In this document: positions 3,769 through 45,070 of the stretch, one piece after another
How the letters are laid out: each line of letters begins with the position of its first letter
Numbering within the stretch: the stretch's first letter is position 1
Virus record (IMG/VR): IMGVR_UViG_3300030419_006693
Location: 1 to 45,868 of that record
Strand: one strand, 5' to 3'
Length of the DNA: 45,868 bases
From: a virus
Notes under the pieces: generated by a model
The model's input: the letters and a program-made list of their open reading frames with translations, nothing else
Databases searched by the model: none
What the model was told of the DNA's origin: nothing
Translations under genes and position numbers: made by a program

Positions 3769-3770
3769 CC

Positions 3771-10863: not shown

Positions 10864-12332
10864 ACACTCATACTTTATATCTTACTTCAACAAATCCTAG
10901 TGGTACTTATACAGAACCTACTATCGAGCTGTTTGATTTAACTGAGCTGTCCTTGGATTTATCAGAAGTATATTCAAATATCTTCCCCGATTACCTAGCA
11001 ATTGACTGGGGTGACGACAGCGGTCTAGAAGAGCCCGACATAACTATATTCCGTAATTATAAAACGCAATCGATTTACCCAGAAATTAGAAAAGGTGCAT
11101 CACCTGTATTTTTTAACACGCCTTATAAACATATATTTTTCCCTTCAAAAACTGCGCTTAAAAAATCGATGACGATGCGGGTAAACGTTGGGTATATAAA
11201 TGGCAGTACAACCAAGTTTACAATACCTTTAAATGTCCGGACAGAGGGATACCATCAAACAGTTGAAGATTTAGATTTGCTAAATGTTAGTATGCTCGAT
11301 AATGAAGATAGTAATTCAATATTTACATACTTAACGAAAAAGGATAATTTTGTAATTCAAAATCATGATGATCTAGATATTGAATATAACGCGGTAGGCA
11401 GTCTAAATTTATCTTCATATGAAGACACATCACTGCAAAGCATCAATGAAACACAATCTCTCCTTTCTGCAGTTACTGATCCGGTTGGTGATGAGGATAA
11501 ATTTAAATTTATTACTAGCGTGACTGACGAATCAGCTACTTGGTCGACTGATTTTTGGGGCCACTCCAATAGAGATGTAATTAATTTTTCTGGTACTAGC
11601 TACAACGCAACTGGGTTCAGTGATAATAATAATGTTACGTTAATTTCCCCTAGACATGGAATAAGCGTAGCGCATTTTGACAACGATCCTGAAACCAGTG
11701 ACGTTGTATTTTTCTATGATCATACAACCGGGAATTCAATTTCTGCAACCATTGTAGATGCAACTGATATTGGCGACGACTTAATAGTAATGCGTTTTAA
11801 TCGAGATATGTCTACCGCAACAACATCCACTGGAGCAGCAGGTAATCTCAAATTATATAAACTCCCGCAATTTGATAATGAGGTAATTTCTCACAAATAC
11901 CCCGCGATCACACAGGGTGGTAATTTTATTTTTGACAGCGATCACTACGCTGGTGTAGGCACACCGCAAATTATTAATCACACTGTTATCTCTAGAAGCC
12001 TGCAGGGGCAAATATTAACCCGTATATCCAGATCTGTGATAGTTGATCTTGGACCTCAAGGAATGCCAGATTATAGACTTACCAACGTCTCGCCTATTCT
12101 CTCTTCATTTAATTTAAGCTTATCAGGCTTAGATAGTGGTGATAGTGGTGGTCCTGTTTTTATACCATATGACAATGAACTGCTTCTTTTAGGAATATGG
12201 CGAACAGCTGCAATTGCAGCTGGTGGGTTAAAAAACTTCGGTAATGAAGAAATACAAAAAAGTATTAGCGCTGGTATGGATACAGTGGGAAATACAGAAG
12301 GATATACCCTATCAACAGTTCGCTTAAGTTAA
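10860..12332 (+). CDS. Tail/baseplate protein with PKD-like and trypsin-like serine protease domains
   Basis: The start is ATG 10860, in an ATGA overlap with the previous stop, giving 490 residues. The frame is open further upstream, but that stretch lies inside the previous gene. Residues ~45-130 form a second PKD-like unit (AIDWGDDSG ... MRVNVGYINGSTTKFTIPL). The rest looks like a chymotrypsin-fold protease: VTLISPRHGISVAHF with candidate catalytic His272, IGDDLIVMRF with Asp307, and GLDSGDSGGPVFIP with Ser429. Order and spacing fit the His-Asp-Ser triad, and GDSGGP is the classical nucleophile motif. A related domain occurs in the giant protein at 21940. It has no signal peptide, so it is most likely carried on the virion. 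It could mature tail proteins, be an inactive fold, or digest host surface protein. The motif is strong, the role unknown. Confidence 0.85.
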   Translation: MNTHTLYLTSTNPSGTYTEPTIELFDLTELSLDLSEVYSNIFPDYLAIDWGDDSGLEEPDITIFRNYKTQSIYPEIRKGASPVFFNTPYKHIFFPSKTALKKSMTMRVNVGYINGSTTKFTIPLNVRTEGYHQTVEDLDLLNVSMLDNEDSNSIFTYLTKKDNFVIQNHDDLDIEYNAVGSLNLSSYEDTSLQSINETQSLLSAVTDPVGDEDKFKFITSVTDESATWSTDFWGHSNRDVINFSGTSYNATGFSDNNNVTLISPRHGISVAHFDNDPETSDVVFFYDHTTGNSISATIVDATDIGDDLIVMRFNRDMSTATTSTGAAGNLKLYKLPQFDNEVISHKYPAITQGGNFIFDSDHYAGVGTPQIINHTVISRSLQGQILTRISRSVIVDLGPQGMPDYRLTNVSPILSSFNLSLSGLDSGDSGGPVFIPYDNELLLLGIWRTAAIAAGGLKNFGNEEIQKSISAGMDTVGNTEGYTLSTVRLS

Positions 12333-21022: not shown

Positions 21023-21937
21023 ATGGCTTTTCCAAGCGACATTACTTTGCCGGATGATGCAAGATATTATTCTTTTATAGAGACCAAAAGGAAATATAAT
21101 TCAAATTATGATATTATATGGTCTTTTCAATACAAGCTTCCGGATATAACTAGTACAAGTAGTGAGGCACTTAATATCGAGCAGCCTGATAATTATCAAT
21201 TAGGATTTTCAACCTTTTTAACATCTCTCTCCTCACCAATTTCTGCGCTGCCAGGTCAATATTTGGGCGATTCGGATTCAGCATGGATATTATCAGGTGG
21301 TAAGCTTACTACAGAAGCAGATGTATCACTTATTACAGAGGATGATGAATATATTGAAGTTGAAACACGAGACTTAAGTGGTACTTTAATTAAAATAGCA
21401 TTTGATACAACAGGTTATTATGGTGTAAGTGGTCGTGATAGTAGAACTGGTGCTGAGGTGTTTGATAGAAAAAGAGAATCTCTTATCTTAAGGGACTTCA
21501 ACAATAACGTTGTATACAACGAGCATCTCTCTTCTATATCTACATCATTTAGCACTCTCTCAACAGACACATTTAGAACCTTGAGATTTAGATATGTTAA
21601 TCTAGGTCAAAAGTTATTTATTGATTATCATGATTCTGACACTACTACATACACTACACTCACAACTATTGACTTAGGATTTAGATTGGAGAACTATAGT
21701 AATCTAGATGACATCTACTGTGGTTTTTCTTTCTGCACTCCTATATCAACAGTATCAAAAGACCTAAGTGCCAAGGAATTCTTTTTAAGGAACTTTCATA
21801 CTGAGGGGTATGAGGGTTATTCGGTATTAACGGAAACGGTTACTAGTGCGCCAATTTCGGCATTCTCTAATCAAACAGTTTCTACTATTAGTAACATAAC
21901 CGCTAGACCTATACAATCTGGCTATTGCTGTGCATAA
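21023..21937 (+). CDS. Probable lectin-like (ConA-fold) virion protein
   Basis: This 304-residue protein has strand patterns of an L-type/concanavalin-like sandwich: YQLGFSTFLTSL, LIKIAFDTTGYYG, RTLRFRYVNLGQKLFIDYHD, and DDIYCGFSFCTP followed by KEFFLRNFHTEG. The last segment resembles the closing strands of legume-lectin-like domains (hydrophobic 'GFS..T....hhh..F'). No catalytic motif is visible. Sugar binding is inferred. The C-terminus (ARPIQSGYCCA) ends in a Cys pair, a feature shared with the Cys-pair-rich giant protein encoded 2 nt downstream, so the two may be joined or assembled together. Its start overlaps two late promoter motifs. Confidence 0.7.
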   Translation: MAFPSDITLPDDARYYSFIETKRKYNSNYDIIWSFQYKLPDITSTSSEALNIEQPDNYQLGFSTFLTSLSSPISALPGQYLGDSDSAWILSGGKLTTEADVSLITEDDEYIEVETRDLSGTLIKIAFDTTGYYGVSGRDSRTGAEVFDRKRESLILRDFNNNVVYNEHLSSISTSFSTLSTDTFRTLRFRYVNLGQKLFIDYHDSDTTTYTTLTTIDLGFRLENYSNLDDIYCGFSFCTPISTVSKDLSAKEFFLRNFHTEGYEGYSVLTETVTSAPISAFSNQTVSTISNITARPIQSGYCCA

Positions 21938-21939
21938 AA

Positions 21940-24900
21940 ATGGCTGAAGAATCATCAGGACAATCTTGTGGGAGCGGTTTCACGGTAAAGACGAGAAAAG
22001 AATGCCCTAACAAGATAATCATTACAGAAGTTAGTGGTAATGGCCCTCTGTATAAAGTATATAACCACGACGGGGACCTGATAGATACATTTGTTTATCA
22101 CGAAGGAAAAGACCACCCTCATGAATGGGAAGAGAAATCTTACACTGTTGACCCTATAGAAACTGATAAAGGGGGACTTTTATATATTCTTATCGAAAGC
22201 TGTGGTTGTTGTGAAGAACGAACTGAACTATGTCCCCTTACGTCGTCTTCAACGTCTTCTACAACGTCATCAACGACATCGACATCTACCTCACCTAAGC
22301 CTGGTGTTCCATCATCTACTACCTCAACGACAACACCCACATCTACCACATCTACCACACCATGTTGTAAGCCGAAAGGTCCGTGGTACTGGAAAAATAA
22401 TACTGTTGTTGATTCTAGTGGTTATTCTGGTGCATGGGGTTCAACAGGGCCTGCTGGTGAACCAGGAAGCGCTATTGTTGATTATGATTCTGCAAGTGGG
22501 GAATTGCATGCCATGGCAGGTACATGGGATGTGGATCCCACGTGGGAATCTGCAGGTGATACGAATACGAGATTAGTTATTACAGCTGACGATGAAGAGG
22601 TAATTTATTATCCGGGTAATTCACCGATGGGTGGTATTACTGTTCAAGCCGGGTCACAGTGGTCTGCACGGTTCGAGCATTTAATAGTACATAATAATAA
22701 GCCTGAACCTCCAAAGCCACCTCCAAAGCCGAAGCCACCTACAACACCTCCTTATATAGTTGATACTGTACAGCAGCAAAAAGATATTGAGGATGGAGCT
22801 GCAGCAGCTCTAGCTGAAATATTAAGATTGAGAAGGGAGGCAGAAGAAGCTGCTGCGGAAGAAGAAAGAATTCGTCAGCAATACCTTTACGATCAAGAAC
22901 AACAACGGAAACTTGAGGCTGCGGCAGAAGCAGCGAGGATTGCCGCTGAAGAAGAGGCTCGTAGAGTTCAACAGCAAATACAACAAGAATACGAGAGATT
23001 AAGACGTGAAGAGCTCGAGCGACAATATGCTGCTGATCAACTCGAAATAGAAGGGCTAAGGCGGGCAGAAGAAAGAGCTCGATTAGAGCAAGAAAGATTA
23101 CAGCAAAAATATAGTGCTGAACTAGACGCTTTAGAACGAAAAAAACAAGAAGCAGCAGAAGCAGCAGAAAGATTATCAAAAGCAGAAGAAGAAAGATTAC
23201 AAAGTCTTGTTAATTATTATAATCAGCAAAAGCTTTACGAATTAGCTGAAAAAGCTTCGGAGTGGCTGGTAAAAATTGAAAACTCACAAATAAAAGACCC
23301 TGGGATTGAGGGGGTCATTCCAACTGACGATCCTCCAACTGCTACAATACAAGAGTATTTATATACCGGTGGTGGGCAATATGTTTCTCGTGAAACAGGT
23401 CAAGAATATGTCGGATACTATCATATACATCCAGATAAAGGGCCAATGGAAGGTCCCCGGCATGTTCAAACCCAACATGGGTATTTAGATATTGCACCAA
23501 GCGGGGGAGGAACAGAAGTAGCTGCAACTACGCTATATCCACGCGCGCCATCTCTTGTTACGACGCCGCGGTTGGGTGTCATGATTCCAGATACAACAGC
23601 TCCAGGAATTCCAGATACAACAGCTCCTGGTACCACACCTGCTTATGATGATCCTTTTAGTGGTGGGGTAATGCCTACCACACTTGCAGCCACTACTACA
23701 CCAAAACCAACAACACCGCCGCCGGGTGTTACTACTACTGCTTATCCCCCTGCGCCGGCTGTTACAACTACACCAGCGCCTATTACTACACCAGTACCTA
23801 TTACTACACCGGCTCCTGCTACAACTACACAGGCACCTATTACTACACCGGCTCCGACACCAGCGCCTACTACACCATTAATAGTAATAAATACTGTAAC
23901 TGACGGGACTACAGGTCCTCCGATGACTACACGCGCTGTAACTACAACAGTCAGGCAACGATTTGCTACTACACCCACACCCGACAGTACAGTAACACGA
24001 GAAATAAACACATTACTTGTATCAATCTTACCAGATATTAATAATATGGTAAACGTCTCCGGGGTTAGTGAAATAGGGCCAACATATCCAACCACAGGGT
24101 ATAAGAAAGCTGTAACGTTAGTTTCACCTACTCACTTTGTAATGTCAAAACACTGGGATTTACGTATGCCAGGTGATACTGTTAACTTTATTGACAATAG
24201 CGGAAAGCGAATTACACGCACTATTGTTGCAGTCAAACCGTTACAAGGTCCAGATATTAGCGTTGGTATTTTAAACGCACCGGTAGAAAATACTGATATC
24301 TATCCTGTACCACAACCACGGCCGACAGGTGGATACGATGAAGAGTTAAAAGGCGCGTATGCTGTTGTAATTGATCAAGAGAGAAAGAGACTTCCGAGAG
24401 TATTAAGCTTTTACCCTACAAACCGGGTGGGACGAGCAGGGGAAAAGGCGTTCTTATATACCTCTATTCCGGATGAATATGCGAACCGGTACGACGGTAA
24501 TTTAAAGGAAGTATTAGGAAAGGGTGATAGTAGCGGGCCAGCATTTATTTATACTAAAAATACACCTATTTTAATTGAAACACATACCTCAAACCTTGAT
24601 GGTCCATTTTACGGTAATTCCCAGACACAGAGTAAGATCAATGAGGCCATGGAAAGCCTTAGCCTACAGACAGGTAGTGAAGTGTATCAACTGCGCACAG
24701 TTGATATCGCAACTGCAATTACATCTGACACGGGTACTGTTTATAATACTCCGGCTCCTGCTAATACTCCGGCTCCTGCTAATACTCCGGCTCCTGCTAA
24801 TACTCCGAGCCCTACAATTACAACTGACACAACTTCAAACGATGACTTTATGTCGTCGTATGCTGCTTATAATATATTACCTCGAACTTCTCCTGTTGGA

Positions 24901-27900
24901 AACAGTATATGGAATAATAAACAAAACACAATTAGGCCTTCTAATATATCAATTCAAACACTTGCACCTGATACAGATAATGAACCTCCGGTGTTTATGG
25001 TAACAAGCCATACCGGTAATAAAAAAGGCCGACGTCTACCAAACGGAGATATAGTTGGACCAGAACCAGGTCTTACAGCCTTTATTACACCTATAGCGTT
25101 AGCAGGGGTTAGAGGGGAACAAGGAAACGCGGGTGCTGCTGGTGCTGCTGGTGCTGCAAGAGCAAGAAAAAATAGGAGACAGCCGCCTCCTCTAGAGGTA
25201 ACCCAGAGTGAAACAGTACTATCAATACCAGGTACAAGATGGATCGGCGACGGGGAACCACCGGAAATCCCTGTAATTGTCACACGGGAAAGGGGTACGG
25301 GTGTCATCGTTAACATCGAGAGCGTGTTACCAAATGTACCTGTCACCCTAGAGTTCACACCCGGTCAAGCAGCGCGAGGTGTAGAAGGGGAACCCGGCTT
25401 CCGACCGGGAAGAGAGGCGAGAATTGCGTTTCCGAACAACGATGATTTGAGTGGTGGAACGTTGGGGTCCTTTGTGCTTGGTGACGGTGGAGAGGGGAAC
25501 TCTATCCCGCAGGTAAACGGCAATCCAGGTGGAGGTGACGATGCTGGTGGAGGTGACGATGCTGGCGGAGGTGACGATGCTGGTGGAGATGATGTAGTAA
25601 GTCAACCAGATCCATTACAAGGATTTCCTGGTAATATTGAAGATACGAACGAAGAGTTACAAAATATTTTATCTAAGTATAATCAATGCATTAAAGATGC
25701 AAACGGTGATGCAGAAAAAATAAAAGAGTGTATAAAAAAATATTACGAAGAGGTAGACGAAGCTACAGAGAGAAAGAATAACATATATGAAGATTTGAAT
25801 CTTATCGTAGACGGACAAGCTGAGCCGGTTAATGGTTTAGTGGTTTTCCATAACGGTAAGTGTTATAAAATCGTTGATGCAGACCTAGTAAAAAATGGGC
25901 GCCCGGGTGGTTCAGTAACGGATCAAGACCCGATGTGTATAGAACCACCGGGACCGGGATGGAAAGAGTGTGAGTGCTGTCCTCCAGATGTAACAACGCC
26001 AAAGGTTACAACATCTACGTCGACAACACCAAAAGTCACAACATCTACTACATCTACATCGACAACGCCACCAGGTGTTACAACATCTACAACAACATCG
26101 ACTACGCCTAAGGTTACCACGTCTACAACGTCGACCACATGTCCTCCTTGCTGCCCACCAAAAGGTAGATGGTATTGGGAAGGTGACAACCCAACAGAAG
26201 ATCAAACTTTAGATGATACGTATTATAATATATATGTAGAGCTCGCAACAAACCCAGGTAAGAGTGATAACAAATTTGTTCAGGGTATTGATGCAACCCA
26301 AGCTGATAAGAGACTTGGAAGAGCTGGTAATCCAGATACATTTAAAGCTACCCCACAAGCGGGCTTAATACTAAAAGATGAGCCTGAAAGTAGTAATCCT
26401 GAATTTGAACAATGTTTAGATGCTGGGGCTGCGCGAAGACGAGTGGAAGCTAGGATTTCTGAATTAGATGCTCGTATTGCCCAGTTAGAAAATCAACTGC
26501 AAGAGCTCAATCGGAGCGCGGAAGGCAGTGGAAGGGTGCAGGAGTTAATTGATAATGCCAATGCAACTCTTGCATCTGGTATTAATATCGATGGTTCAGA
26601 TCTTACTGAAAGTGATATTGATCGTATACAAAACGATATTGCTGGGTGGAACCAAGCAATTGCTGATTTCAACGCAGTGAGGGAAGCAACCCAGGGAACG
26701 TTACAAGCAGCTCAAGAATTAAAACAAACGCTAGAAGGGCAGCCACTACCGGGAGAGCCAGGTAGTGGATACGGTCTATGCTTTAAGCTCATGTCTACTG
26801 CTGGTGATAGTGGATTTGCCATAGAGATATCCCCTGCTAGCTCAGTCCAACAGGCTTGGCTAGCCGATCCAGATTCTAATGGTGGTACAAAAAAGATACC
26901 GATAGGGTATGAAGGTAATGGATGGAAATATTGTGAATGTTGCCCGGAAACAACCGGCACGTCGTCAACGTCAACATCCACATCCACGTCAACATCCACA
27001 TCGACAACACCAAAAGTCACAACATCTACTACATCTACAACACCGTGTTGCATTCCGGAATGTTCGCCACCAGCAGATAGATTAGGAATGTGGTTTTGGG
27101 ATGATGCTCAAAACAATTATTTAGTACCATATAATGGAGTCGCTAAAAAAGGCGGTGTGTTTTGGGAAGGACCGGAATTTCAAGGAACTCCACAAGAAAA
27201 AGAAATTGCTTCTGCAATGTTGAATAATAATTTACCGGAAGCAACTAGATTATTTAACAAAATCCCGGCAAAGCAAAGACCGGAGTTAAGAGGAAGATTA
27301 GCAGCATGGGCGGCTCAATATCATAATGAAGATCTAAGGCAGTGTTATAAGATTCATGATGCTGATTGGGTGAATCAAAATAAAGAGGTGCGTCCATCAG
27401 ATGATGTTGGTGCGGTTAACTTAGCGATCAACCCGGAGGCTGATATAGACGGCGATGGTACAGCTGATAAGGGAGAAGGTTGGGAAGAATGTCCGTGCTG
27501 TCCGTGTTGCCCACCGACAGTGTGTGGCCTATGCTGGTTTTATAGAGACGAATTTAACAATATATTTGCGCTACTAGGACAAGGAGAGTTTGTTCCTGGT
27601 TTTGACGGTAAAAAACAAAAAAGACGCGGTGTAATTGAATTGCGAAGAGGGTTTACCGGCGCAGAACTGAAAGCGGCAGAAGACCAAGTAAAGGCTATAG
27701 AAGGTAAGGTAATTTTCCGGCCTCCACCAGGTACTAGATTGACGTATGAGTTTGAAGTTGAGGTTCAGCAACGTAACCGTCAAGCGGATAAATTCGAATT
27801 CGATGTTGAAGAAGGTCTTGTTGTTGAATATTGCTGTACCGACCCTCCACCTGTTATAGATGGATTTGTTGATGAGGAAATTGAAGAAGCGTTCGATGAA

Positions 27901-29220
27901 GCTAAAGCTGCAAAAGAAAATCAGGAAATGAGACAACAAGCTGTTGATGATCTTTCTGACGCGTTTGATGATATCGGGCCTCTTTCAAACGACCAACTAC
28001 AGCAGCAAATGGACGCGGAGTTTGAGCTCGTAGAAGCTAACCGTAGAGTTGATAACGCGAGACTAGGTTGGGAAGTAGCAAATGGTAATATTGATGGCCC
28101 TGGATCACGTGGTTTACAGGGCCTTAAACATGTTATTGCTGATCAAATACTTGCTTTAAATCCAAATTGGAACGCTGACCAGCAAGAACTTCTTAGAGAC
28201 GCAATCCAAGCAGAAATTAATTTACAAGAAGCAAACCCTGGCTTATTTGGCTTAGAGGGTATAGATAGATTCGGACCATTATCACTCCGCCGGTCGAATG
28301 TGGAAAAAGGCGGTAATCCAAGAATAAACGCGGCTTTTGCAGAACTAAGTGACGACAGTGGAAGTCTTGGCGGCGGTGGCTTTGAGCGTTTAGGGCCAGA
28401 TGAGGCGCTTGAGCTAGGAATGACTCCAGAAAATCGAAGATGGGATCAAGACCGGATTCAAGGGCTTATTGCAGACGCACTAGACAGAAGAGACGCAATT
28501 CAAAACGATGAGAACTTTGCTGATATCGCGGATCATAATAGACTGTCTAAAGATGAGATAGTTGGTGGTGATGAGTTAGATCCATTTGAAGATGATGAAG
28601 GTCGTAAATTTGATCCGAACCGAGCGATAGATGAGGATGGCGACGGTGTAATTTCAGATGAAGAGCGTGATCGCTTCGATGAAGACGGTGTACGTGGATT
28701 AGAAGATGTTGCTAAAAACTTCGATAAAGATTGTCTAACAGCTTGTAGACCTATCTGCTTTGAAGTTATTGATGCAGACTTTGTAAATAAAAATCCTCAA
28801 TTAAGTCCTGCAATAGATGTTCTGATGTGGGTTAACGATTTAAAATTAAATCCTCAGAACGAAGATAAACCAAAGAAATTTACTACTAAAGATCTTGAGC
28901 CTGAAGACAGGGGCTTAGGTTGGAAGATGTGTGAATGCTGCCCATGTCCTCCAGTACCAAGTGTACCGCCTCCAGGTGGTGGTGGTAATGCTACGATCAT
29001 AGTTGCTACAACACAAACGACACCGATCCCGGGACCGAAAATTCCCACAACAACGCCGACTACGCCGCCGCCGCTGACCACGCCGCTGGTACCAACCTCT
29101 ACTAGTACTACGCCAACTGTAACGTCGACGACTACAATAATAATAACGACACCAACATTTACTACGCTATGTCCTCCAGATGCTAAAGGAGGTCCTCGTT
29201 GCAATGTGCTCAAATGGTAG
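21940..29220 (+). CDS. Giant mosaic mucin-like tail/adhesin protein with trypsin-like domain
   Basis: From ATG 21940 this encodes 2426 residues. In order: an N-terminal domain ending in CGCC (88-91); a Ser/Thr linker (nt 22240-22362); collagen-like GSTGPAGEPGS; a Pro/Lys stretch; a long Glu/Ala/Gln/Arg coiled coil (nt ~22780-23240); a Pro/Thr region (nt ~23570-23880); a trypsin-like domain with candidate His738, Asp772, Ser864 (KGDSSGPAF); three APANTP repeats; collagen-like Gly-Ala triplets; GGGDDA repeats; then four related Cys modules, each with a C-[YF]-[KE]-like strand and a GWxxCxCCP end (Trp1341, 1662, 1848, 2328). Two modules lead into further Ser/Thr linkers. Two EF-hand loops are present. 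No signal or membrane segment is seen. It is most likely a long extended virion adhesin, and the linkers are candidate O-glycosylation sites for the next genes' products. No single family covers it. Confidence 0.85.
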   Translation: MAEESSGQSCGSGFTVKTRKECPNKIIITEVSGNGPLYKVYNHDGDLIDTFVYHEGKDHPHEWEEKSYTVDPIETDKGGLLYILIESCGCCEERTELCPLTSSSTSSTTSSTTSTSTSPKPGVPSSTTSTTTPTSTTSTTPCCKPKGPWYWKNNTVVDSSGYSGAWGSTGPAGEPGSAIVDYDSASGELHAMAGTWDVDPTWESAGDTNTRLVITADDEEVIYYPGNSPMGGITVQAGSQWSARFEHLIVHNNKPEPPKPPPKPKPPTTPPYIVDTVQQQKDIEDGAAAALAEILRLRREAEEAAAEEERIRQQYLYDQEQQRKLEAAAEAARIAAEEEARRVQQQIQQEYERLRREELERQYAADQLEIEGLRRAEERARLEQERLQQKYSAELDALERKKQEAAEAAERLSKAEEERLQSLVNYYNQQKLYELAEKASEWLVKIENSQIKDPGIEGVIPTDDPPTATIQEYLYTGGGQYVSRETGQEYVGYYHIHPDKGPMEGPRHVQTQHGYLDIAPSGGGTEVAATTLYPRAPSLVTTPRLGVMIPDTTAPGIPDTTAPGTTPAYDDPFSGGVMPTTLAATTTPKPTTPPPGVTTTAYPPAPAVTTTPAPITTPVPITTPAPATTTQAPITTPAPTPAPTTPLIVINTVTDGTTGPPMTTRAVTTTVRQRFATTPTPDSTVTREINTLLVSILPDINNMVNVSGVSEIGPTYPTTGYKKAVTLVSPTHFVMSKHWDLRMPGDTVNFIDNSGKRITRTIVAVKPLQGPDISVGILNAPVENTDIYPVPQPRPTGGYDEELKGAYAVVIDQERKRLPRVLSFYPTNRVGRAGEKAFLYTSIPDEYANRYDGNLKEVLGKGDSSGPAFIYTKNTPILIETHTSNLDGPFYGNSQTQSKINEAMESLSLQTGSEVYQLRTVDIATAITSDTGTVYNTPAPANTPAPANTPAPANTPSPTITTDTTSNDDFMSSYAAYNILPRTSPVGNSIWNNKQNTIRPSNISIQTLAPDTDNEPPVFMVTSHTGNKKGRRLPNGDIVGPEPGLTAFITPIALAGVRGEQGNAGAAGAAGAARARKNRRQPPPLEVTQSETVLSIPGTRWIGDGEPPEIPVIVTRERGTGVIVNIESVLPNVPVTLEFTPGQAARGVEGEPGFRPGREARIAFPNNDDLSGGTLGSFVLGDGGEGNSIPQVNGNPGGGDDAGGGDDAGGGDDAGGDDVVSQPDPLQGFPGNIEDTNEELQNILSKYNQCIKDANGDAEKIKECIKKYYEEVDEATERKNNIYEDLNLIVDGQAEPVNGLVVFHNGKCYKIVDADLVKNGRPGGSVTDQDPMCIEPPGPGWKECECCPPDVTTPKVTTSTSTTPKVTTSTTSTSTTPPGVTTSTTTSTTPKVTTSTTSTTCPPCCPPKGRWYWEGDNPTEDQTLDDTYYNIYVELATNPGKSDNKFVQGIDATQADKRLGRAGNPDTFKATPQAGLILKDEPESSNPEFEQCLDAGAARRRVEARISELDARIAQLENQLQELNRSAEGSGRVQELIDNANATLASGINIDGSDLTESDIDRIQNDIAGWNQAIADFNAVREATQGTLQAAQELKQTLEGQPLPGEPGSGYGLCFKLMSTAGDSGFAIEISPASSVQQAWLADPDSNGGTKKIPIGYEGNGWKYCECCPETTGTSSTSTSTSTSTSTSTTPKVTTSTTSTTPCCIPECSPPADRLGMWFWDDAQNNYLVPYNGVAKKGGVFWEGPEFQGTPQEKEIASAMLNNNLPEATRLFNKIPAKQRPELRGRLAAWAAQYHNEDLRQCYKIHDADWVNQNKEVRPSDDVGAVNLAINPEADIDGDGTADKGEGWEECPCCPCCPPTVCGLCWFYRDEFNNIFALLGQGEFVPGFDGKKQKRRGVIELRRGFTGAELKAAEDQVKAIEGKVIFRPPPGTRLTYEFEVEVQQRNRQADKFEFDVEEGLVVEYCCTDPPPVIDGFVDEEIEEAFDEAKAAKENQEMRQQAVDDLSDAFDDIGPLSNDQLQQQMDAEFELVEANRRVDNARLGWEVANGNIDGPGSRGLQGLKHVIADQILALNPNWNADQQELLRDAIQAEINLQEANPGLFGLEGIDRFGPLSLRRSNVEKGGNPRINAAFAELSDDSGSLGGGGFERLGPDEALELGMTPENRRWDQDRIQGLIADALDRRDAIQNDENFADIADHNRLSKDEIVGGDELDPFEDDEGRKFDPNRAIDEDGDGVISDEERDRFDEDGVRGLEDVAKNFDKDCLTACRPICFEVIDADFVNKNPQLSPAIDVLMWVNDLKLNPQNEDKPKKFTTKDLEPEDRGLGWKMCECCPCPPVPSVPPPGGGGNATIIVATTQTTPIPGPKIPTTTPTTPPPLTTPLVPTSTSTTPTVTSTTTIIITTPTFTTLCPPDAKGGPRCNVLKW
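22240..22362 (+). repeat. Ser/Thr-rich linker 1 (low-complexity coding repeat)
   Basis: Forty-one codons are almost entirely Thr, Ser and Pro (units such as SSTTSTSTS and STTTPTSTTSTTP), bounded by CGCC upstream and PCC downstream. Mixed Thr and Ser codons on a repeating acn/tcn pattern are prone to slippage and recombination. Confidence 0.85.
23570..23880 (+). repeat. Pro/Thr-rich linker 2
   Basis: Repeated TTPAP, ITTP and PDTTAPG units form a mucin-like stretch just before the trypsin-like domain. A 20-nt block encoding PDTTAP is directly repeated 24 nt apart (from 23584 and 23608). Confidence 0.8.
24751..24804 (+). repeat. Three perfect 18-nt tandem repeats (APANTP)
   Basis: The unit CCGGCTCCTGCTAATACT is repeated three times without mismatch, encoding PAPANT, directly after the trypsin-like domain. 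Unit number could change in steps of six residues. Confidence 0.95.
25531..25584 (+). repeat. Three 18-nt tandem repeats (GGDDAG)
   Basis: The unit GGAGGTGACGATGCTGGT is repeated three times with one mismatch (unit 2), and a partial degenerate fourth follows. It encodes an acidic Gly-Asp hinge. Confidence 0.92.
25993..26139 (+). repeat. Ser/Thr-rich linker 3
   Basis: Forty-nine codons are of TT-PKV-TTSTS type, placed between a GWKECECCP module end and a CPPCCPPKGRWYW module start. It contains the first copy of the 39-nt direct repeat. Confidence 0.85.
26020..26058 (+). repeat. 39-nt perfect direct repeat, copy A
   Basis: It begins TCGACAACACCAAAAGTCAC and is identical to 27001-27039. The two copies are 981 nt apart, exactly 327 codons, so recombination between them would delete or duplicate one module in frame. 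Confidence 0.92.
26950..27045 (+). repeat. Ser/Thr-rich linker 4
   Basis: Thirty-two codons are rich in STSTSTS and TTPKVTTST units, between GWKYCECCPE and PCCIPEC. It contains copy B of the 39-nt repeat. Confidence 0.85.
27001..27039 (+). repeat. 39-nt perfect direct repeat, copy B
   Basis: Identical to 26020-26058. The flanking bases differ on both sides, so 39 nt is the full extent of perfect identity. Confidence 0.92.
29008..29166 (+). repeat. Pro/Thr-rich linker 5 at the C-terminus
   Basis: A mucin-like TTPTTPPPL and STSTTPTVTSTTT stretch makes up most of the last 70 residues of the giant protein, ending close to the final Cys (LCPPDAKGGPRC). Confidence 0.8.
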
Positions 29221-29232
29221 TAATTATTATTA

Positions 29233-30063
29233 ATGACTAAGCTTACTGTTGGTATTTGTGTATACGATGATTACGATGGAGCATATTTTACAATGCAGTC
29301 AATTAGATTACACAACAGGGATATAATTGACAGACTTGAATTTGTAATTATTAACAACAACCCTAGATCTGAGCAAGGTAAAGCTCTTTATAATTACAAG
29401 GGATGGGTGAAAGAACCGCTAACATATATTGAATACGATAATTTTTCTTCTACAGCACTTAGGGACAAAATATTCGGGTTAGCGAACACAGAATATGTTT
29501 TAGTTATGGACTGCCATGTTCTTATTGCGAACGGATCATTAAAGAGATTGTTAGATTATTATGACAGTGGTAAGGATAAAGGTAACCTACTTCATGGACC
29601 ACTTTTGTATGACGATTTAGAGTCTTATAGTACTCATTTTGATTTGAGTATATGGGGATCACATATGTGGGGTCAATGGGGAACAGATACACGAGCTGAG
29701 TCTATGAATTCTAAGCCATTTGAAATTGAGGCACAAGGATTAGGACTATTTACCTGCCGTAAGGATAGTTGGTTAGGGTTTAATCATAAATTTAGAGGAT
29801 TTGGTGGTGAGGAAGGGTATATTCACGAAAAATATAGAAAAGCAGGTAAGAAAGTAATGTGCTTACCTTTCTTAAGATGGAATCACAGGTTTGATAGGCC
29901 TAATGGTGTACCTTATCACAATGATCTAAAAGATAGGTTTAGAAACTATATGATCGGCCATGATGAGGTTGGTTTAGATACTAATCTTGTTATTGAGCAG
30001 TTTAAGGATGTGATACCCGCAGACTATATTGAAGAGGTCAAGAGTGAATTAAATATCAAATAA
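29233..30063 (+). CDS. GT-A glycosyltransferase with DxH motif (mucin-type GalNAc-transferase-like)
   Basis: This 276-residue GT-A fold enzyme starts TVGICVYDDYDGAYFTMQSI. The metal motif reads VLVMDCHVLI, i.e. DxH (Asp93, His95) rather than the usual DxD. Later it has FRGFGGEEGYIHEKYRKAGK with GGEE at 191-194, and LPFLRWNHRF with His218. DxH, a GGE acceptor-loop motif and a third-ligand His in that order are the pattern of polypeptide GalNAc-transferases (family GT27), which start mucin O-glycans on Ser/Thr. That assignment is by motif, and a GT2 enzyme with other specificity is the alternative. It starts 12 nt after the mucin-like giant gene and is followed after 4 nt by another glycan enzyme, so the three are probably co-transcribed. 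It lacks the C-terminal ricin-type lectin domain of animal enzymes. Confidence 0.82.
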   Translation: MTKLTVGICVYDDYDGAYFTMQSIRLHNRDIIDRLEFVIINNNPRSEQGKALYNYKGWVKEPLTYIEYDNFSSTALRDKIFGLANTEYVLVMDCHVLIANGSLKRLLDYYDSGKDKGNLLHGPLLYDDLESYSTHFDLSIWGSHMWGQWGTDTRAESMNSKPFEIEAQGLGLFTCRKDSWLGFNHKFRGFGGEEGYIHEKYRKAGKKVMCLPFLRWNHRFDRPNGVPYHNDLKDRFRNYMIGHDEVGLDTNLVIEQFKDVIPADYIEEVKSELNIK

Positions 30064-30067
30064 TTTA

Positions 30068-32839
30068 ATGAAGACTTTGGAAAAAGTACACGGGGTTCCA
30101 AAAGTAACATGTCTATGCGCTACTAGAGGTAGATACCAATTACTTAGAGCAGCAGTATCTTACTTTATGCTGCAAGACTATCCTAACAAAGAGCTTATTA
30201 TTTTTAATAACCACTCCGTAGACATAGAACTTTCAGAGTTTGTTAAAAAGCAGCAGAATATACACCTTATAAACGCCGGTGAGTTTGACACTATTACAGA
30301 TGTTTATAGTACTGCGTTTACTTATGTTGATAGTTTTGGTGGGCAAACTTCTGAATATGTCGCTATTTGGGACGACGATGATATTTATTTACCATGGCAT
30401 TTATCAATAGCTGTAAAGCATCTTAATAAAGGGACACACGTTATGTCCAAGCCAGCGGAGCAACTTTCTATAAATCACCAGGATGATTGTTTTCCAAAAA
30501 TTGCTGCGATGAGAAATGGATGTGAAGGTAGTATGGTAGTTAAAAAATCACACTTAGAACTATACGGGTTTGGTCCTAATACAGATAATCCACATGAGCA
30601 GCACCACCCACACCCAGCATGGCTACACTCTGGAGAGTCTATTTTTGAATACCCTTGGCAAGAAAATAGTTTTGTATACTTTTGGGCCGATGAAAATAGA
30701 GTACCGTGTTATCATCACCAGCAGTGTGGATATAATCCTAGTGGTAATACAGATACAGGAAAAGGTAAGCCGCTATACCCAGGACCAACCTACTATGATT
30801 TTATTCAAAAAAACTTATACAAAAGAAAGTATGACGAAGAGTACACTAAAGAGGAAAAGGAAGCAATAGTTGATAAACTTAACGGCTACGACTGGCAGTT
30901 CTTTGAAGAAAGAAAACTCTTTACTTTCTGGGAGGGGGAAAAGCCTTATTTTATTACAAAATGTTTAGAGTCGATGAAAGATAACTCGAATTGCATTTTT
31001 GAGGTCTGGGACTCAAAAAAGCTTAAAGATACATTTGAGGATATACCAAAGGAATATGATTCACTATGTGTTGAGTTTAAATCGGATTACGCGAGACAGC
31101 GCATATTATATGAATACGGGGGGATGTGGCTGGATGCAGATATGTTTGTCGTTAATGATTTATATAACGCGGTAATAAAATATACCTGGGATTATGATCA
31201 GGTCCAACCCTTAGAAAACCCGGACGCGTTAAGTATAAACATTTGCGCAATGGCCTGTAGACCGAAATCACAGGTCTTTAAAAGAGTAATGGAGTCAGTA
31301 AATGCAGTCATGCCTCTTCATATAGGATGGGGTGATCTTCTAAATACCCCGACAAAGTATAATATTCGTGAGTATGCAACTCGAAACTTAGTTAAGTATA
31401 TTGATGAGTCTGTAATTTCGCTCAAGTTTGTACAAAGTCCACATGGTGCGTTTTCTGAGATTTACTCATCAACTGAACTTCCGCTAGATGAAATTGTGCT
31501 TTCTGATACTGCTGTTGTTACGCTACACTCTTCACAGATAAGACATCAACAGAAAGATAAAATGCCTTCTAACTGGTTACTTCAAAGACTAATAGATAAT
31601 TATACGGATGAGACTGAACTTGATAAACTCCTATCAAAATCTAAAATTGAATATGACGGGCCGTGTTTTGAAGGTGGGTGGAGTAATTCCCTAAATGGTT
31701 TAAAATCCCAACAACACCCGGGGGCATACTACGCATTTGACGACTTTTTCTCTCGTAATAAATTTGATTTAATTATTGAATTAGGTACCGGTGCAGGTGG
31801 TTTAACCTTTTTCTTAGCTGTTATAAATCCGAATACTCCGATTCATACAATAGACTTACATCCGACACATTCACAAGCTGTATTTGATACAGTGGATAAT
31901 ATTACTTTTGAATGTCTTGATATTTTTAATCCTAATGTAATAAAGTCTTTGGAAGTATTATCTACCGGTAAAAAAACTTGTTGGTTAATAGATAGTGGCG
32001 CTTGGGAAAAAAATAAAGGATTTGAAGTTTATTCCCCGCTAGCTGGAGAGGGAGACGTTCTAATGTTACACGACTTTGCTAGAACTCCTGAAAGCCACAA
32101 TAAAATTTATGGCGCAGGCCGGTGGCACTGGCATGAGTCAGGATACGAGAGTAATTTACCTTTAGATCGCATGGAATGGGCTGGTGAAACTCTTCTCGAA
32201 AACTGCGTTTGGGGTACTTATAAAAAGATAGATACAACAAAAAAAAGAAAAAAAATGTGGTGCCAGGATATTGCTCAGCACCAACAAAACGAAAAGAATT
32301 TTGTAGGGTACGGTAGTAAGTATGAGTTTGTAAAATCTTCCGGGACTATTGATTTTATAAACAATATTATTAAGACTTATAATATTAAATCTATTAACGA
32401 CATTGGTTGTGGTTTTTTTGCAAACTGGGCTCATGAACTAAATTTAGAAGGTGTTGAATACACGGGATTTGATATCGTGCCTCAGACGATTGAAGACAAT
32501 AAAAATGCTTACCCAGATATCCGATTTTATGAGTGGGATGCTGTTACGCAGCCTCTCCCATACGCCGACCTTATAATTGCAAGAGATCTATTTTTTCATT
32601 TAAATAATGAGTGTTTATATAAATGTTTAGATCAGTGTAAGAGATCTAATTCTAAGTATCTACTTGCAACACACCATAAAGAAGTAGAAGTTAATATGGA
32701 AATGGAAGGTATTTTAGGATTTCGACCATGTACCTTAGAAAAGGCGCCTTTTAATTTAGAACCCTCTTTAATCTCACACACAGAGCAAGCCGAAGGGGGT
32801 GGTTATTCAAACAGGCAAATTAGCTTATGGGAATTATAA
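30068..32839 (+). CDS. Four-domain glycan enzyme: GT2 + GT32-like + two SAM methyltransferases
   Basis: The 923 residues hold four modules. Residues ~10-240 form a GT2-type transferase (TCLCATRGRYQLLRAAVSYF, AIWDDDDIYLPWHL with Asp102-105). Residues ~285-500 form a GT32/OCH1-like transferase (LFTFWEGEKPYF, SDYARQRILYEYGGMWLDAD with DAD at 356-358). Residues ~540-720 form a class I methyltransferase-like domain (IIELGTGAGG, 569-578, and VLMLHDFART). Residues ~750-920 form a second one (INDIGCGFF, with Gly780 and Gly782). It probably builds and methylates an oligosaccharide, successive steps being fused in one chain. The acceptor is unknown. Position directly behind the mucin-like adhesin and the GT27-like enzyme suggests the adhesin, or else a host-surface glycan. 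It is convergent with the next gene, overlapping it by 6 nt. Confidence 0.85.
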   Translation: MKTLEKVHGVPKVTCLCATRGRYQLLRAAVSYFMLQDYPNKELIIFNNHSVDIELSEFVKKQQNIHLINAGEFDTITDVYSTAFTYVDSFGGQTSEYVAIWDDDDIYLPWHLSIAVKHLNKGTHVMSKPAEQLSINHQDDCFPKIAAMRNGCEGSMVVKKSHLELYGFGPNTDNPHEQHHPHPAWLHSGESIFEYPWQENSFVYFWADENRVPCYHHQQCGYNPSGNTDTGKGKPLYPGPTYYDFIQKNLYKRKYDEEYTKEEKEAIVDKLNGYDWQFFEERKLFTFWEGEKPYFITKCLESMKDNSNCIFEVWDSKKLKDTFEDIPKEYDSLCVEFKSDYARQRILYEYGGMWLDADMFVVNDLYNAVIKYTWDYDQVQPLENPDALSINICAMACRPKSQVFKRVMESVNAVMPLHIGWGDLLNTPTKYNIREYATRNLVKYIDESVISLKFVQSPHGAFSEIYSSTELPLDEIVLSDTAVVTLHSSQIRHQQKDKMPSNWLLQRLIDNYTDETELDKLLSKSKIEYDGPCFEGGWSNSLNGLKSQQHPGAYYAFDDFFSRNKFDLIIELGTGAGGLTFFLAVINPNTPIHTIDLHPTHSQAVFDTVDNITFECLDIFNPNVIKSLEVLSTGKKTCWLIDSGAWEKNKGFEVYSPLAGEGDVLMLHDFARTPESHNKIYGAGRWHWHESGYESNLPLDRMEWAGETLLENCVWGTYKKIDTTKKRKKMWCQDIAQHQQNEKNFVGYGSKYEFVKSSGTIDFINNIIKTYNIKSINDIGCGFFANWAHELNLEGVEYTGFDIVPQTIEDNKNAYPDIRFYEWDAVTQPLPYADLIIARDLFFHLNNECLYKCLDQCKRSNSKYLLATHHKEVEVNMEMEGILGFRPCTLEKAPFNLEPSLISHTEQAEGGGYSNRQISLWEL

Positions 32840-33067
32840 ATTACCAAGAGAAGCTTCAACCTTAAGATCGTGTCTCATAGAGTGATATCTTTCATCAATA
32901 TACTTTTGGAAAGCTAAAGGCTTAATCCATTTATCGCTATCTACATCTACGTCTTCTTGACTACCAACTACTTCAAGAGCTTCAATTAAACATGCCCAAC
33001 GAACTAGTTCATCAAATTCCATTGTCTTTGTACTACCATCTTTTAAATTAAATTTAAAGTTTTTCAT
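32834..33067 (-). CDS. Small hypothetical protein
   Basis: The product has 77 residues, beginning MKNFKFNLKDGSTKTMEFDE and ending KVEASLGNL. The start looks like a small beta-hairpin and the rest helical. No family is recognised. It is the last gene of a minus-strand group with the two genes upstream of it, and its stop overlaps the stop of the four-domain enzyme. In front of it is GGAACTATAATATAAT, a -10-like box preceded by GGAACT that falls across the end of the upstream gene, suggesting an extra internal promoter. Confidence 0.65.
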   Translation of the reverse strand: MKNFKFNLKDGSTKTMEFDELVRWACLIEALEVVGSQEDVDVDSDKWIKPLAFQKYIDERYHSMRHDLKVEASLGNL

Positions 33068-42378: not shown

Positions 42379-43032
42379 TTATTTCGTTTTCCACTTGTCT
42401 AAAAACCACTGCTGACCTTTGTTAAACTCCTTGGTAAAGGAAGTAAGACCAGGAGAGTTATGTGTTATTAAAATATCCCCTACACCTAATTTAAATCCCT
42501 CTTTATGACATTGCATAGAATAATCTAAATCATAAAAATGCCATTTAGATGGGCAATCTTCATCAAAACGAACCTTTTCAAACACGCGTCGGTGAATTGC
42601 TAAAAAGACACCATCAAGTAACACAACTCGTTTTGGGTATTTACCAAAAGCTGTCATATGTTTATTGGTTTCGTTTCCATGAGCAACTGCTCCGTACAAA
42701 TTACCTGATCCAAAACCACCGCCCATTAAATGCCATAATGCTGGTGGTTTTAATTTTACTTCTGTCGTACCAGCGCACCCTACAACATCAAACTTCTCAA
42801 ACAAACTATCTAATTTACTTTCAGAATAATTTTCTAGGATGACATCGTCGTGAACTAATACCAACTTTTGCACATTTTCTTGTAAGGCAAAGTCGATAGC
42901 TTTGTTATATACTTTTTGTAGTGAGTCTTTATTATTTTCCTTAAAAACTACAGTATCATTTTCTGTTGTTTTCCATAATAATGTATCTTTTTCTTTACCT
43001 GCTGTTGCTGAAAATATCATTGTATTTATCAT
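42379..43032 (-). CDS. Glycosyltransferase (GT-A fold, GT2-like)
   Basis: The 217-residue protein has the pattern of small GT2-like enzymes. A Rossmann-like start precedes KLVLVHDDVIL (acidic metal motif about residues 61-63). Later comes VVLLDGVFLAIHRRVFEKVR and then DEDCPSKWHFYDLDYSMQCH, which holds the catalytic and acceptor-side acidic residues, followed by ILITHNSPG. The enzyme should transfer a sugar from a nucleotide donor; donor and acceptor are unknown. Its start overlaps the amidotransferase stop (ATGA), and a third glycan gene lies upstream, so 42379-44621 looks like a small glycan-modification operon inside the replication block. Confidence 0.82.
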   Translation of the reverse strand: MINTMIFSATAGKEKDTLLWKTTENDTVVFKENNKDSLQKVYNKAIDFALQENVQKLVLVHDDVILENYSESKLDSLFEKFDVVGCAGTTEVKLKPPALWHLMGGGFGSGNLYGAVAHGNETNKHMTAFGKYPKRVVLLDGVFLAIHRRVFEKVRFDEDCPSKWHFYDLDYSMQCHKEGFKLGVGDILITHNSPGLTSFTKEFNKGQQWFLDKWKTK

Positions 43033-43706
43033 ATAAACGAAAACGGAGAATCGTGTTTAAATTTACCTACCTTGTTCCATCTACGTGTTTTGTTATTCAA
43101 TTTAACTATTACGCCTTCCGAGAGTTCCTTAAAACCGGTTCCAGCCATTGTTGAATAGTCACCCTTTGTGTTGCAATGAAGAATTGATCCTGATCTCGCG
43201 AGAAACACTTCATTAGTATCACAAAATACCATGCTTAAAGCATACGTACCAGCTAACAACTGCAATGTCTTTTTAATAATTGGAACAGGGTTAACTGTTA
43301 CTACTCCTTTACTGTGTTCTTTTTGTGTAAAGTGTTCTAATACATTAACAATTACAGCTGTATCTACACTATTTTGTATAAAACTACAATATTCTCTTTT
43401 AAGTTTTTTATGATTAGTTAAAACACCATTATGCGAAACCATCCATGAAAGAGATTCAAAAGGATGTGAAGTATCATACTCCCACGTTCTTTTTGCTGAA
43501 GTTGGAGCCTGTACATGTCCTAAAAAATAATCAGCACTAGGCTCATATGTATATTTATCGAAATCTATATCACCTTGCTTTTTACGTATAAATTGATCAT
43601 CATCTGACAAGCTTACTACGCTGCTAGCAAAATTACCTCGTTGCTTATTAGCTTCATATAATACCTCAAACATCGAAGTATCAAAAGATCCAAAAATAGC
43701 GCACAT
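43029..43706 (-). CDS. Class II glutamine amidotransferase, stand-alone domain
   Basis: The 225-residue protein starts MCAIFGSFDT, so removal of Met leaves the N-terminal Cys nucleophile of class II (Ntn) amidotransferases. Further motifs are LGHVQAPTSA, the SWMVSHNGVLTNHKKLKREY block, SVDTAVIVNVLEHF and LLAGTYALSMVFCDTNEVFL, ARSGSILH. The domain releases ammonia from glutamine. In GlmS, PurF or AsnB it is fused to a synthetase that uses the ammonia, but no such domain is present in the protein or elsewhere in the window. It may work with a host enzyme or in amino-sugar formation for the neighbouring glycosyltransferases; the latter is inferred from gene order only. Confidence 0.9.
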   Translation of the reverse strand: MCAIFGSFDTSMFEVLYEANKQRGNFASSVVSLSDDDQFIRKKQGDIDFDKYTYEPSADYFLGHVQAPTSAKRTWEYDTSHPFESLSWMVSHNGVLTNHKKLKREYCSFIQNSVDTAVIVNVLEHFTQKEHSKGVVTVNPVPIIKKTLQLLAGTYALSMVFCDTNEVFLARSGSILHCNTKGDYSTMAGTGFKELSEGVIVKLNNKTRRWNKVGKFKHDSPFSFI

Positions 43707-43742
43707 AATGTATATTAATATATCTTGTTAGATTATCAATTG

Positions 43743-44621
43743 CTACAACACTGTTGTATTTAAATTTTTTAAATATCCCGGAATCCTCTCTTCACAAAAA
43801 TCTTTACCTCGTCCGCAAAAATGGCGAACATAAGGAGATGTATCGGGATCCGTAGGTAAATTAAAGTGCTGTAATATACCGTATGGTAGTACTACGCTAT
43901 TATCTTTTAGTCTTTCTACGTTACTTCGCCACATCTCTCTAAGAGCGCCTTGATCCCATGCTCTAATAAGTGACGTGTGTTTATCTATTTGTATACCTCT
44001 TGCTGCCCACTTTTGCAAAATATTAATACACCTAGGTGTATTTTTTATAATCATAATACCAGTGTTTATTTCATGCTCAATGTAATTAATAAAATCTATG
44101 TCCGGGTACTGTTTCTGTAGTTGTTTAACAGAGGCTTGATCCTTTTCCGTGAGAACCGACCAAGATATCTTAGAATCAACGGGCGTGAAAGTATTACGTG
44201 CATACGTAATATCTACAATGTCATTATTTTCGTCTATACGATGAGAGTCACTCCACTTTGCAAGACCTCGAAGACCTTCAATTTTTTTATGAGAATCACT
44301 CGGGTGGTCTTGACTTAAAATTAGGTCTTTATCGCTATATAACTTAATAATATCTTCAATTCGGCCCTTGTCAGTATAAAAATGTGCATCAGCATCAATC
44401 CACACAATATAATCATAATCTGTTATATGCCCTAAAAGCATAGGTACTTTTTCCCATGGTGGTTCATTACGAAAATCGTTACCACTTGGTTTGTTACAAT
44501 GTATTAAATCATAGCCATGTTTATTGCAATAAATTTTATTAATTGCGTAAGATGCATTAGCAAATCTCGCACCATACACATCATCAAACCACATTAAAAC
44601 TGCTATATTTAAATCACTCAT
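43743..44621 (-). CDS. Glycosyltransferase, GT34-like (DxD)
   Basis: The product from ATG 44621 has 292 residues (MSDLNIAVLMWFDDVYGARF). Key features are YDYIVWIDADAHF (DxD metal site), HEINTGIMIIKNTPRCINIL, AWDQGALREMW and the C-terminal HFCGRGKDF. This set is typical of the galactosyl/mannosyl transferases of family GT34 (GMA12/MNN10 type). A GKxS-like upstream extension exists, but the ATG forms an ATGA overlap with the upstream stop and is preferred. It is co-expressed with the HhH protein gene. Together with the GT at 42379 and the two glycan enzymes at 29233-32839, the phage carries five transferase domains in this window. Confidence 0.87.
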   Translation of the reverse strand: MSDLNIAVLMWFDDVYGARFANASYAINKIYCNKHGYDLIHCNKPSGNDFRNEPPWEKVPMLLGHITDYDYIVWIDADAHFYTDKGRIEDIIKLYSDKDLILSQDHPSDSHKKIEGLRGLAKWSDSHRIDENNDIVDITYARNTFTPVDSKISWSVLTEKDQASVKQLQKQYPDIDFINYIEHEINTGIMIIKNTPRCINILQKWAARGIQIDKHTSLIRAWDQGALREMWRSNVERLKDNSVVLPYGILQHFNLPTDPDTSPYVRHFCGRGKDFCEERIPGYLKNLNTTVL

Positions 44622-45070
44622 TTTTCCCAATCAAACTTAAAACCGGGTTCCCACATATAAGAGTTATCAACATACCGACTCGAGGGCCCATCCGGTCCTT
44701 CTTCTCTAATACGTTCACAGATTTTTCGCATTCTTAGTATATGCGGGCTAGGTTCAGCTACAGACTGTCTACGTTCTTCAGGGATCCTCCAAAACAAATC
44801 AATATTACCAAACTTTGTATCTTTAGCTAAGCTATAATCCGGATAATCAACACCATCAATAGTAAACCACTTTTTCTTTTTCTTTTTTGGTTTTTCGATT
44901 CCTAAATTTTTAAGCGTCTTTTTACCTAGTCCTTTTACTTTAAATAGATCTTCATTATTTCTAAAAGGCCTAAACCCTAAAACACGTTTAGCGGTGGTCC
45001 TACCCACACCAGGCAGTTTACACAGCTCTTTCTCTGTCAATTTGTTAAAATCCTTATAATTTAGCTTCAT
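44618..45070 (-). CDS. Helix-hairpin-helix protein
   Basis: The 150-residue protein begins with two consecutive helix-hairpin-helix units: LTEKELCKLPGVGRTTAKRV (LPGVGRTTA hairpin) and NEDLFKVKGLGKKTLKNLG (VKGLGKKTL hairpin). A very basic stretch follows (KPKKKKKKW), then ~80 residues without known motif. HhH pairs bind the DNA backbone without sequence preference, as in ComEA and repair proteins. The C-terminal part is Arg/Pro-rich (HILRMRKICERIREEG). A DNA-binding role in replication or repair is likely; the exact function is unknown. Its upstream sequence has AAGGAACT and TATAAT-like boxes, overlapping the divergent late promoter of the right-edge gene. Confidence 0.8.
   Translation of the reverse strand: MKLNYKDFNKLTEKELCKLPGVGRTTAKRVLGFRPFRNNEDLFKVKGLGKKTLKNLGIEKPKKKKKKWFTIDGVDYPDYSLAKDTKFGNIDLFWRIPEERRQSVAEPSPHILRMRKICERIREEGPDGPSSRYVDNSYMWEPGFKFDWEK

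Follow-up and report, generated by a model that had tools for sequence, protein, structure and literature searches.

The window analysed here is a 45,868-base fragment of a virus record. Three open reading frames lie in series on its + strand, encoding an adhesin, a transferase and a fusion enzyme, and the gaps between them are 12 and 4 nt, exactly as the initial annotation had described. Its statement that no terminator separates the genes also holds, since a scan found none on the + strand after 27156 and hence none between the three frames. The trio is located at the end of a T4-like tail and baseplate block that includes gp25, Gp6-like, Gp10_C and Collar domains, and from this position we infer that the adhesin is part of the virion. 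A convergent 77-aa gene, for which a Pfam search gave no family, faces the block from the 3' side. None of the transferase, adhesin, 77-aa and 304-aa genes has a relative in the phage record collection. The features of the locus are as follows.

21023..21937, + strand: conserved 304-aa tail-region gene immediately 5' of the adhesin gene (homologues in 57 loci)
21940..29220, + strand: mucin-like adhesin of 2426 aa with Cys-rich domains, a coiled coil, a trypsin-like domain, Ser/Thr/Pro tracts and a C-terminal tag
22219..22383, + strand: dense Ser/Thr/Pro tract 1 (aa 94-148)
23620..24039, + strand: looser Thr/Pro linker (aa 561-700), seen in the translation
24037..24774, + strand: trypsin-like serine protease fold within the adhesin, with His, Asp and GDSS invariant in the alignment
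25990..26160, + strand: dense Ser/Thr/Pro tract 2 (aa 1351-1407)
26935..27057, + strand: dense Ser/Thr/Pro tract 3 (aa 1666-1706)
29008..29166, + strand: dense Ser/Thr/Pro tract 4 (aa 2357-2409)
29200..29217, + strand: C-terminal tag CNVLKW (consensus C-[N/K]-x-L-x-[F/Y/W]-COOH; in most cases another Cys precedes it)
29233..30063, + strand: GT27-like GT-A transferase of 276 aa
29509..29517, + strand: DxH motif D93-C94-H95, predicted metal site (D and H invariant)
29803..29814, + strand: GGEE motif (aa 191-194)
29884..29886, + strand: C-terminal His218, predicted third metal ligand (invariant; in register with the GHVF motif of GALNT2)
30068..32839, + strand: slot gene, a 923-aa fusion of GT2, GT32/Caps_synth-like, weak methyltransferase and methyltransferase domains
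32834..33067, - strand: convergent 77-aa gene, the boundary of the locus (homologues in 73 of 81 viral loci)

The several Ser/Thr/Pro linkers seen earlier in the adhesin are thus located as four dense tracts. These are encoded by all four codons for Thr and by mixed codons for Ser, and tandem repeats overlap them in one 35-nt array only. Because of this, the tracts are not a simple DNA-repeat artefact, and microsatellites are ruled out as their source. The model of the trypsin-like domain has a pLDDT of 70.6, and its top 50 Foldseek matches are mostly chymotrypsin-fold proteases (best E 1.1e-6). A second, related trypsin-like domain is found in the tail-block gene at 10860-12332; the two share 25% identity (E 2e-5), with the His and GDSxGP aligned.

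The C-terminal tag is strikingly conserved on phage proteins that are otherwise unrelated. Its pattern was found in 52 distinct 12-mers among 18,773 frames, 51 of them from phage loci and one a stray. It may serve in virion attachment or in disulfide locking of the C-terminus. It is doubtful as an obligatory docking signal for the transferase, since one relative without the enzyme (L263, see below) has retained it as CNKLGF. Tract proteins beyond the T4-like clade have no such tag, and there is no strict tie between the tag and the transferase.

Elsewhere in the window (42379-44630, - strand), two more glycosyltransferases (Glyco_tranf_2_5 and GT34-like) surround a class II glutamine amidotransferase. 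These genes are possibly another glycan or sugar-nucleotide set.

Fold and motifs of the transferase

GT27 comprises the animal enzymes that initiate mucin sugars. The initial annotation had recognised the DxH...GGE...H pattern of these enzymes in the second gene, and all of its motifs are present (D93-C-H95, GLGLF, GFGGEE and W-N-H218). Asp93, His95, Glu193, Glu194, Trp216 and His218 show no variation in 51 viral relatives, in which the DxH, GFG-x-EEGYIHEK and W-x-H motifs are nearly constant; D93, H95, E193, E194 and H218 are also invariant in 44 mixed sequences. The AlphaFold2 model has a pLDDT of 93.5 and a pTM of 0.91. When it was searched with Foldseek against 350,542 PDB chains, including the GT27 structures, the best 50 matches were all polypeptide GalNAc-transferases (E 6.3e-14 to 7e-11, TM-score by query 0.62-0.76), and not lipid- or DNA-modifying GT2 enzymes that lack DxH.

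The likeness to mucin-type GalNAc-transferases therefore stands for the fold, but membership of GT27 by sequence profiles does not. Pfam matches the transferase to PF00535 only, the generic GT2 family, and searches of PHROGs and NCBIfam returned weak generic glycosyltransferase matches only. Neither phmmer against the PDB nor a profile of the 51 viral relatives gave a GT27 assignment, and a wider profile that included cellular relatives reached GALNT12 only at E 0.83. The PDB profile search instead favours the N-terminal GT2 core common to TarP (E 1.9e-6) and chondroitin synthase. In an hhalign comparison with the GALNT2 core, which is the 2ffu sequence except for one residue, the two sequences line up at DxH, GLF, GGE and the C-terminal His, but the score lacks significance (probability 4.5%, E 0.009) and does not reach GT27 membership. 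Since sequence profiles alone give no GT27 placement, we name the enzyme GT27-like, by fold and motifs, without counting it among the members of GT27. It resembles GT27 (human GALNT2; PDB codes: 2ffu, 6nqt) in its GT-A fold, its DxH, the order of GLF, GGE and C-terminal His, and its S/T/P-rich, mucin-like partner protein. In contrast to GT27, it is predicted to be cytoplasmic, has about 15% identity, goes undetected by GT27 sequence profiles and has no ricin-type lectin domain, as the chain stops after the catalytic domain.

The change from DxD to DxH is typical of both GT27 and GT60, and both families carry out O-glycosylation of polypeptide Ser/Thr (PMC7185993). The GT60 polypeptide GlcNAc-transferases of protists and bacteria thus share the DxH and the kind of acceptor. 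Accordingly, the adhesin could be glycosylated with a first sugar other than GalNAc, by a polypeptide GlcNAc-, hexose- or other transferase with a GT60-like specificity, and we put the chances of this at about even. The donor is not readable from the sequence, and a UDP-GalNAc epimerase was not noticed in the window. Against it, the fold search puts GT27 first, and PF11397 (GT60) is absent from the Pfam matches of the transferase and its 51 relatives. GalNAc itself as the first sugar is, in our view, somewhat less likely than not. This alternative concerns the sugar only and is compatible with a protein-directed enzyme.

Association of the transferase with Thr/Ser tracts

The strongest evidence for a glycosylation system comes from the comparative pairing of the transferase with tract proteins. 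A first search of viral contigs gave 261 relatives of the enzyme, and a broader search at least 462. Among 54 viral lineages, dereplicated at 90% identity, 43 have a tract no more than 3.5 kb from the transferase gene, 3 are cut by contig ends and 8 are without; one of these 8 (L068) has a Ser-rich tract that is below the Thr threshold. A same-strand upstream neighbour with a tract is found for 32 of 45 transferase genes versus 9 of 470 other genes (Fisher p 2e-32, a nominal value since the lineages are related), and the gap between the two is typically 10-13 nt. The flank test for viral loci gave 22 with tracts near only and 0 with tracts far only. Up to 1 kb from the transferase gene, tracts reach a density of 1011 nt per 10 kb, versus 17-30 at 5-10 kb. 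When whole contigs were scanned, a 211-kb relative had tracts in 3 of its 313 ORFs, none of them more than about 6 genes away from the transferase, and 120 kb of another relative had a single one among 153 ORFs, adjoining the transferase. Thus, the adjacency exceeds chance.

What recurs is the tract, not a particular protein. The tract proteins upstream of the transferase range from 118 to more than 2000 aa and have little else in common, and the adhesin bodies are often unrelated while tract and transferase persist. In other phage groups, 8 further lineages carry the transferase; a tract is within 4 kb in 5 of them and directly upstream in 2.

Relatives that lack the transferase were found by using the neighbouring 77-aa gene as an anchor, and most of them have no tract. 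L263 (9998-14894) is a natural deletion of the transferase: the gene order of the window is kept, the transferase is cleanly absent and the tracts are reduced to remnants. In four other loci without it (L222, L223, L225 and L228), an unrelated gene of 272-283 aa, whose product starts MKFVT(I/V)TDDNQWRYS, takes the transferase position after the 77-aa gene.

The pairing has exceptions in both directions. Three lineages (L020/L023, L030/L034/L035 and L075/L226) have the transferase and no tract in the available sequence, their contigs being fragments. In another phage group (L310, L336), the transferase adjoins replication-type genes with no Thr tract near; here the acceptor may be a different one or a distant one. 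Conversely, L236-L239 and L258 lack this transferase but encode, at the corresponding site, adhesins rich in Thr/Pro/Ser (PTPS-type), which may be unglycosylated or may depend on another enzyme.

The third gene behaves differently from this pair. It occupies a slot between the transferase gene and the 77-aa gene that is empty in most loci and has variable contents in others, namely a GT29-like enzyme with a PIG-L deacetylase (L003), a polysialyltransferase-like enzyme (weak match) with a sulfotransferase (L004), a GT6 (L009) or a GT2 (L019). The fusion described earlier as GT2, GT32 and two methyltransferases is borne out by Pfam for GT2, Gly_transf_sug/Caps_synth and one methyltransferase. 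The second methyltransferase is firm (phrog_3382, 2.6e-29), but the first is weak, at 26.4 bits versus the Pfam cut-off of 27. This gene is recognisable at high identity in one other locus only, that of the nearest relative L001 (64% over part). The window and L001 are 97.7% identical downstream and 91-92% identical in the adhesin and transferase genes, versus only 821 alignable nt in the slot, at 84% identity. The search in relatives does not bear out the three genes as a fixed set: the trio is rejected as a conserved unit, and only the adhesin-transferase pair is conserved. Because the slot content is variable, the fusion is one version of an exchangeable cassette and not an essential partner. 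It is presumably a glycan-extending or capping enzyme, and there is a reasonable case, somewhat better than even, that the slot enzymes act on the tract glycan.

Cellular relatives and the nature of the acceptor

The transferase domain is also found in 65 cellular genome contigs of several phyla, at 36-53% identity and mostly within longer proteins. At these loci, tracts are about 5-10 times as dense in the nearest 3 kb as in the far flank, and the flank test gave 26 with tracts near only and 5 far only. An iterated HMM search of the 65 loci found PqqD, a peptide-binding domain, in 28, an HprK-related kinase in 34 and NTP_transf_5 in 26, and PqqD or HprK-like domains are fused to the transferase in some proteins. 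These PqqD and HprK matches do not reach the cut-offs of NCBIfam and so are relatives and not members of the named systems. In L178, a PqqD domain and a Thr tract are in one protein, 2 nt ahead of the transferase gene. L180, a prophage-like locus in a Halorhodospira MAG (1-2083; 3756-4730), has a Phage_capsid_4 protein with a C-terminal Thr tract immediately upstream of the transferase, and a second, downstream protein also has a Thr-rich C-terminus. The enzymes of L180 and L181 are divergent, and scans of viral contigs with them gave nothing useful.

These cellular loci resemble PqqD/RRE RiPP loci and HPr-rel-A (TIGR04352, TIGR04353) in that the relatives of the transferase are fused or adjacent to PqqD and an HprK-related kinase, and a Thr-rich protein beside them is a candidate substrate. 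The phage locus is different: the substrate would be a large adhesin, and PqqD was not found in the phage genes examined, which are part of the genes of the window. As a separate observation, loci L117-L181 bring together the GT27-like domain, PqqD, the HprK-related kinase, NTP_transf_5 and a short Thr-tract protein with a Tat-like leader, possibly an undescribed RiPP-like glycoprotein system.

Our main reason for proposing a polypeptide acceptor is that these unrelated settings share only the transferase and a Thr-rich protein. The same recurrence bears on the idea that tracts and transferase travel together through a shared variable tail locus and do not act on each other. In its favour, the locus is a clear gene-replacement hotspot, and one group of tract-type adhesins lacks the transferase. 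But the pairing recurs at bacterial PqqD loci, at a capsid-gene locus and in other phage groups, and we regard mere co-travel as quite improbable.

A host surface glycan or other non-protein acceptor, modified for superinfection exclusion or serotype conversion while the tracts are only flexible linkers, is a somewhat stronger alternative, yet still unlikely. It draws on the profile resemblance of the N-terminal half of the enzyme to chondroitin synthase and to TarP, a teichoic-acid GlcNAc transferase, and on the transferase-positive lineages without a tract. TarP and TarS share the GT2-type GT-A core and act on wall teichoic acid, but TarP is absent from the best 50 fold matches of the phage enzyme. 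In addition, the transferase gene belongs to a T4-like tail block and closely follows a tract gene, L263 has lost tract and transferase together, and in the cellular relatives the enzyme is joined to PqqD or HprK-like domains and is not located in plain polysaccharide clusters.

Enzymes of the T4 beta-glucosyltransferase type glycosylate DNA bases, and a role of this kind for the present transferase is very improbable. We know of no GT27-like fold for DNA glycosylation, and the enzyme is paired in phages with structural genes and tracts, and in cells with PqqD and Thr-rich proteins. What speaks for it is that phage glycosyltransferases commonly glycosylate DNA, according to work cited in PMC12619734.

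A proposed system for glycosylation of the adhesin

Because a tract protein and a transferase resembling the mucin-initiating enzymes recur side by side in many uncultured aquatic phages, these phages probably sugar-coat their own adhesin. We consider it likely that the phage encodes at this locus a mucin-like system of O-glycosylation, in which a GT27-like enzyme modifies the tracts of the adhesin and variable capping follows; protein-directed glycosylation of the tract protein is probable to the same degree. The acceptor, the sugar and the order of the steps are proposed as follows. In the cytoplasm of the infected cell, the GT27-like enzyme would transfer the first sugar, probably from a UDP-HexNAc-type donor, onto Thr/Ser of the tracts in the adhesin encoded 12 nt upstream. 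The slot enzymes, here the GT2, GT32 and methyltransferase fusion, would extend and then cap this sugar. The glycosylated tracts may stiffen and protect the linkers, and the outcome would be a changeable sugar coat on the virion. Mimicry of a host glycan is speculation. Thus, of the phage mucin-type O-glycosylation system first proposed for this locus, the GT27-closest fold and the pairing with tracts are upheld, but the trio as a unit and the placement in GT27 by sequence are not.

Glycans on phage virion proteins are a common theme with mycobacteriophages, in which the C-termini of capsid and tail tube subunits are reported to be glycosylated (Freeman et al. 2023, as cited in PMC12619734 and PMC12691614). 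Here, the predicted target is an adhesin whose tracts are internal and which ends in a C-terminal tag. The enzyme family also differs from the mycobacteriophage one, since tblastn with the transferase gave no match at 1e-5 in 50,697 phage records (INPHARED). We found no report in the open-access PMC literature of a GT27-like enzyme paired with Thr-rich proteins in phage or bacteria, and self-glycosylation of an adhesin by such an enzyme is probably new in this form.

More broadly, the chances are slightly better than even that these enzymes belong to a prokaryote-wide family of mucin-type polypeptide O-glycosyltransferases. Its members would act on phage adhesins and capsids with exchangeable capping (the capping genes being sialyltransferase-like, GT6, sulfotransferase and methyltransferase) and, in bacteria, in the PqqD-guided, RiPP-like modification of Thr-rich proteins. 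The cellular loci include culturable organisms such as Rhodococcus erythropolis and Desulfofustis glycolicus. A possible use of the system is as a bacterial tool to make mucin-like glycoproteins. If a small GT27-like enzyme of the cytoplasm has a Thr tract as its natural substrate, this would also be informative on the origin of mucin-type O-glycosylation. Few cases of phage virion glycosylation are known, and the candidate system described here is widespread, judging by the number of viral relatives of its enzyme, and combines an enzyme of its own with a recognisable substrate and a capping slot of rapidly changing content. If it operates as proposed, the phage would control its own sugar coat, which would matter for adsorption, for escape from host defences and for binding to mucus.
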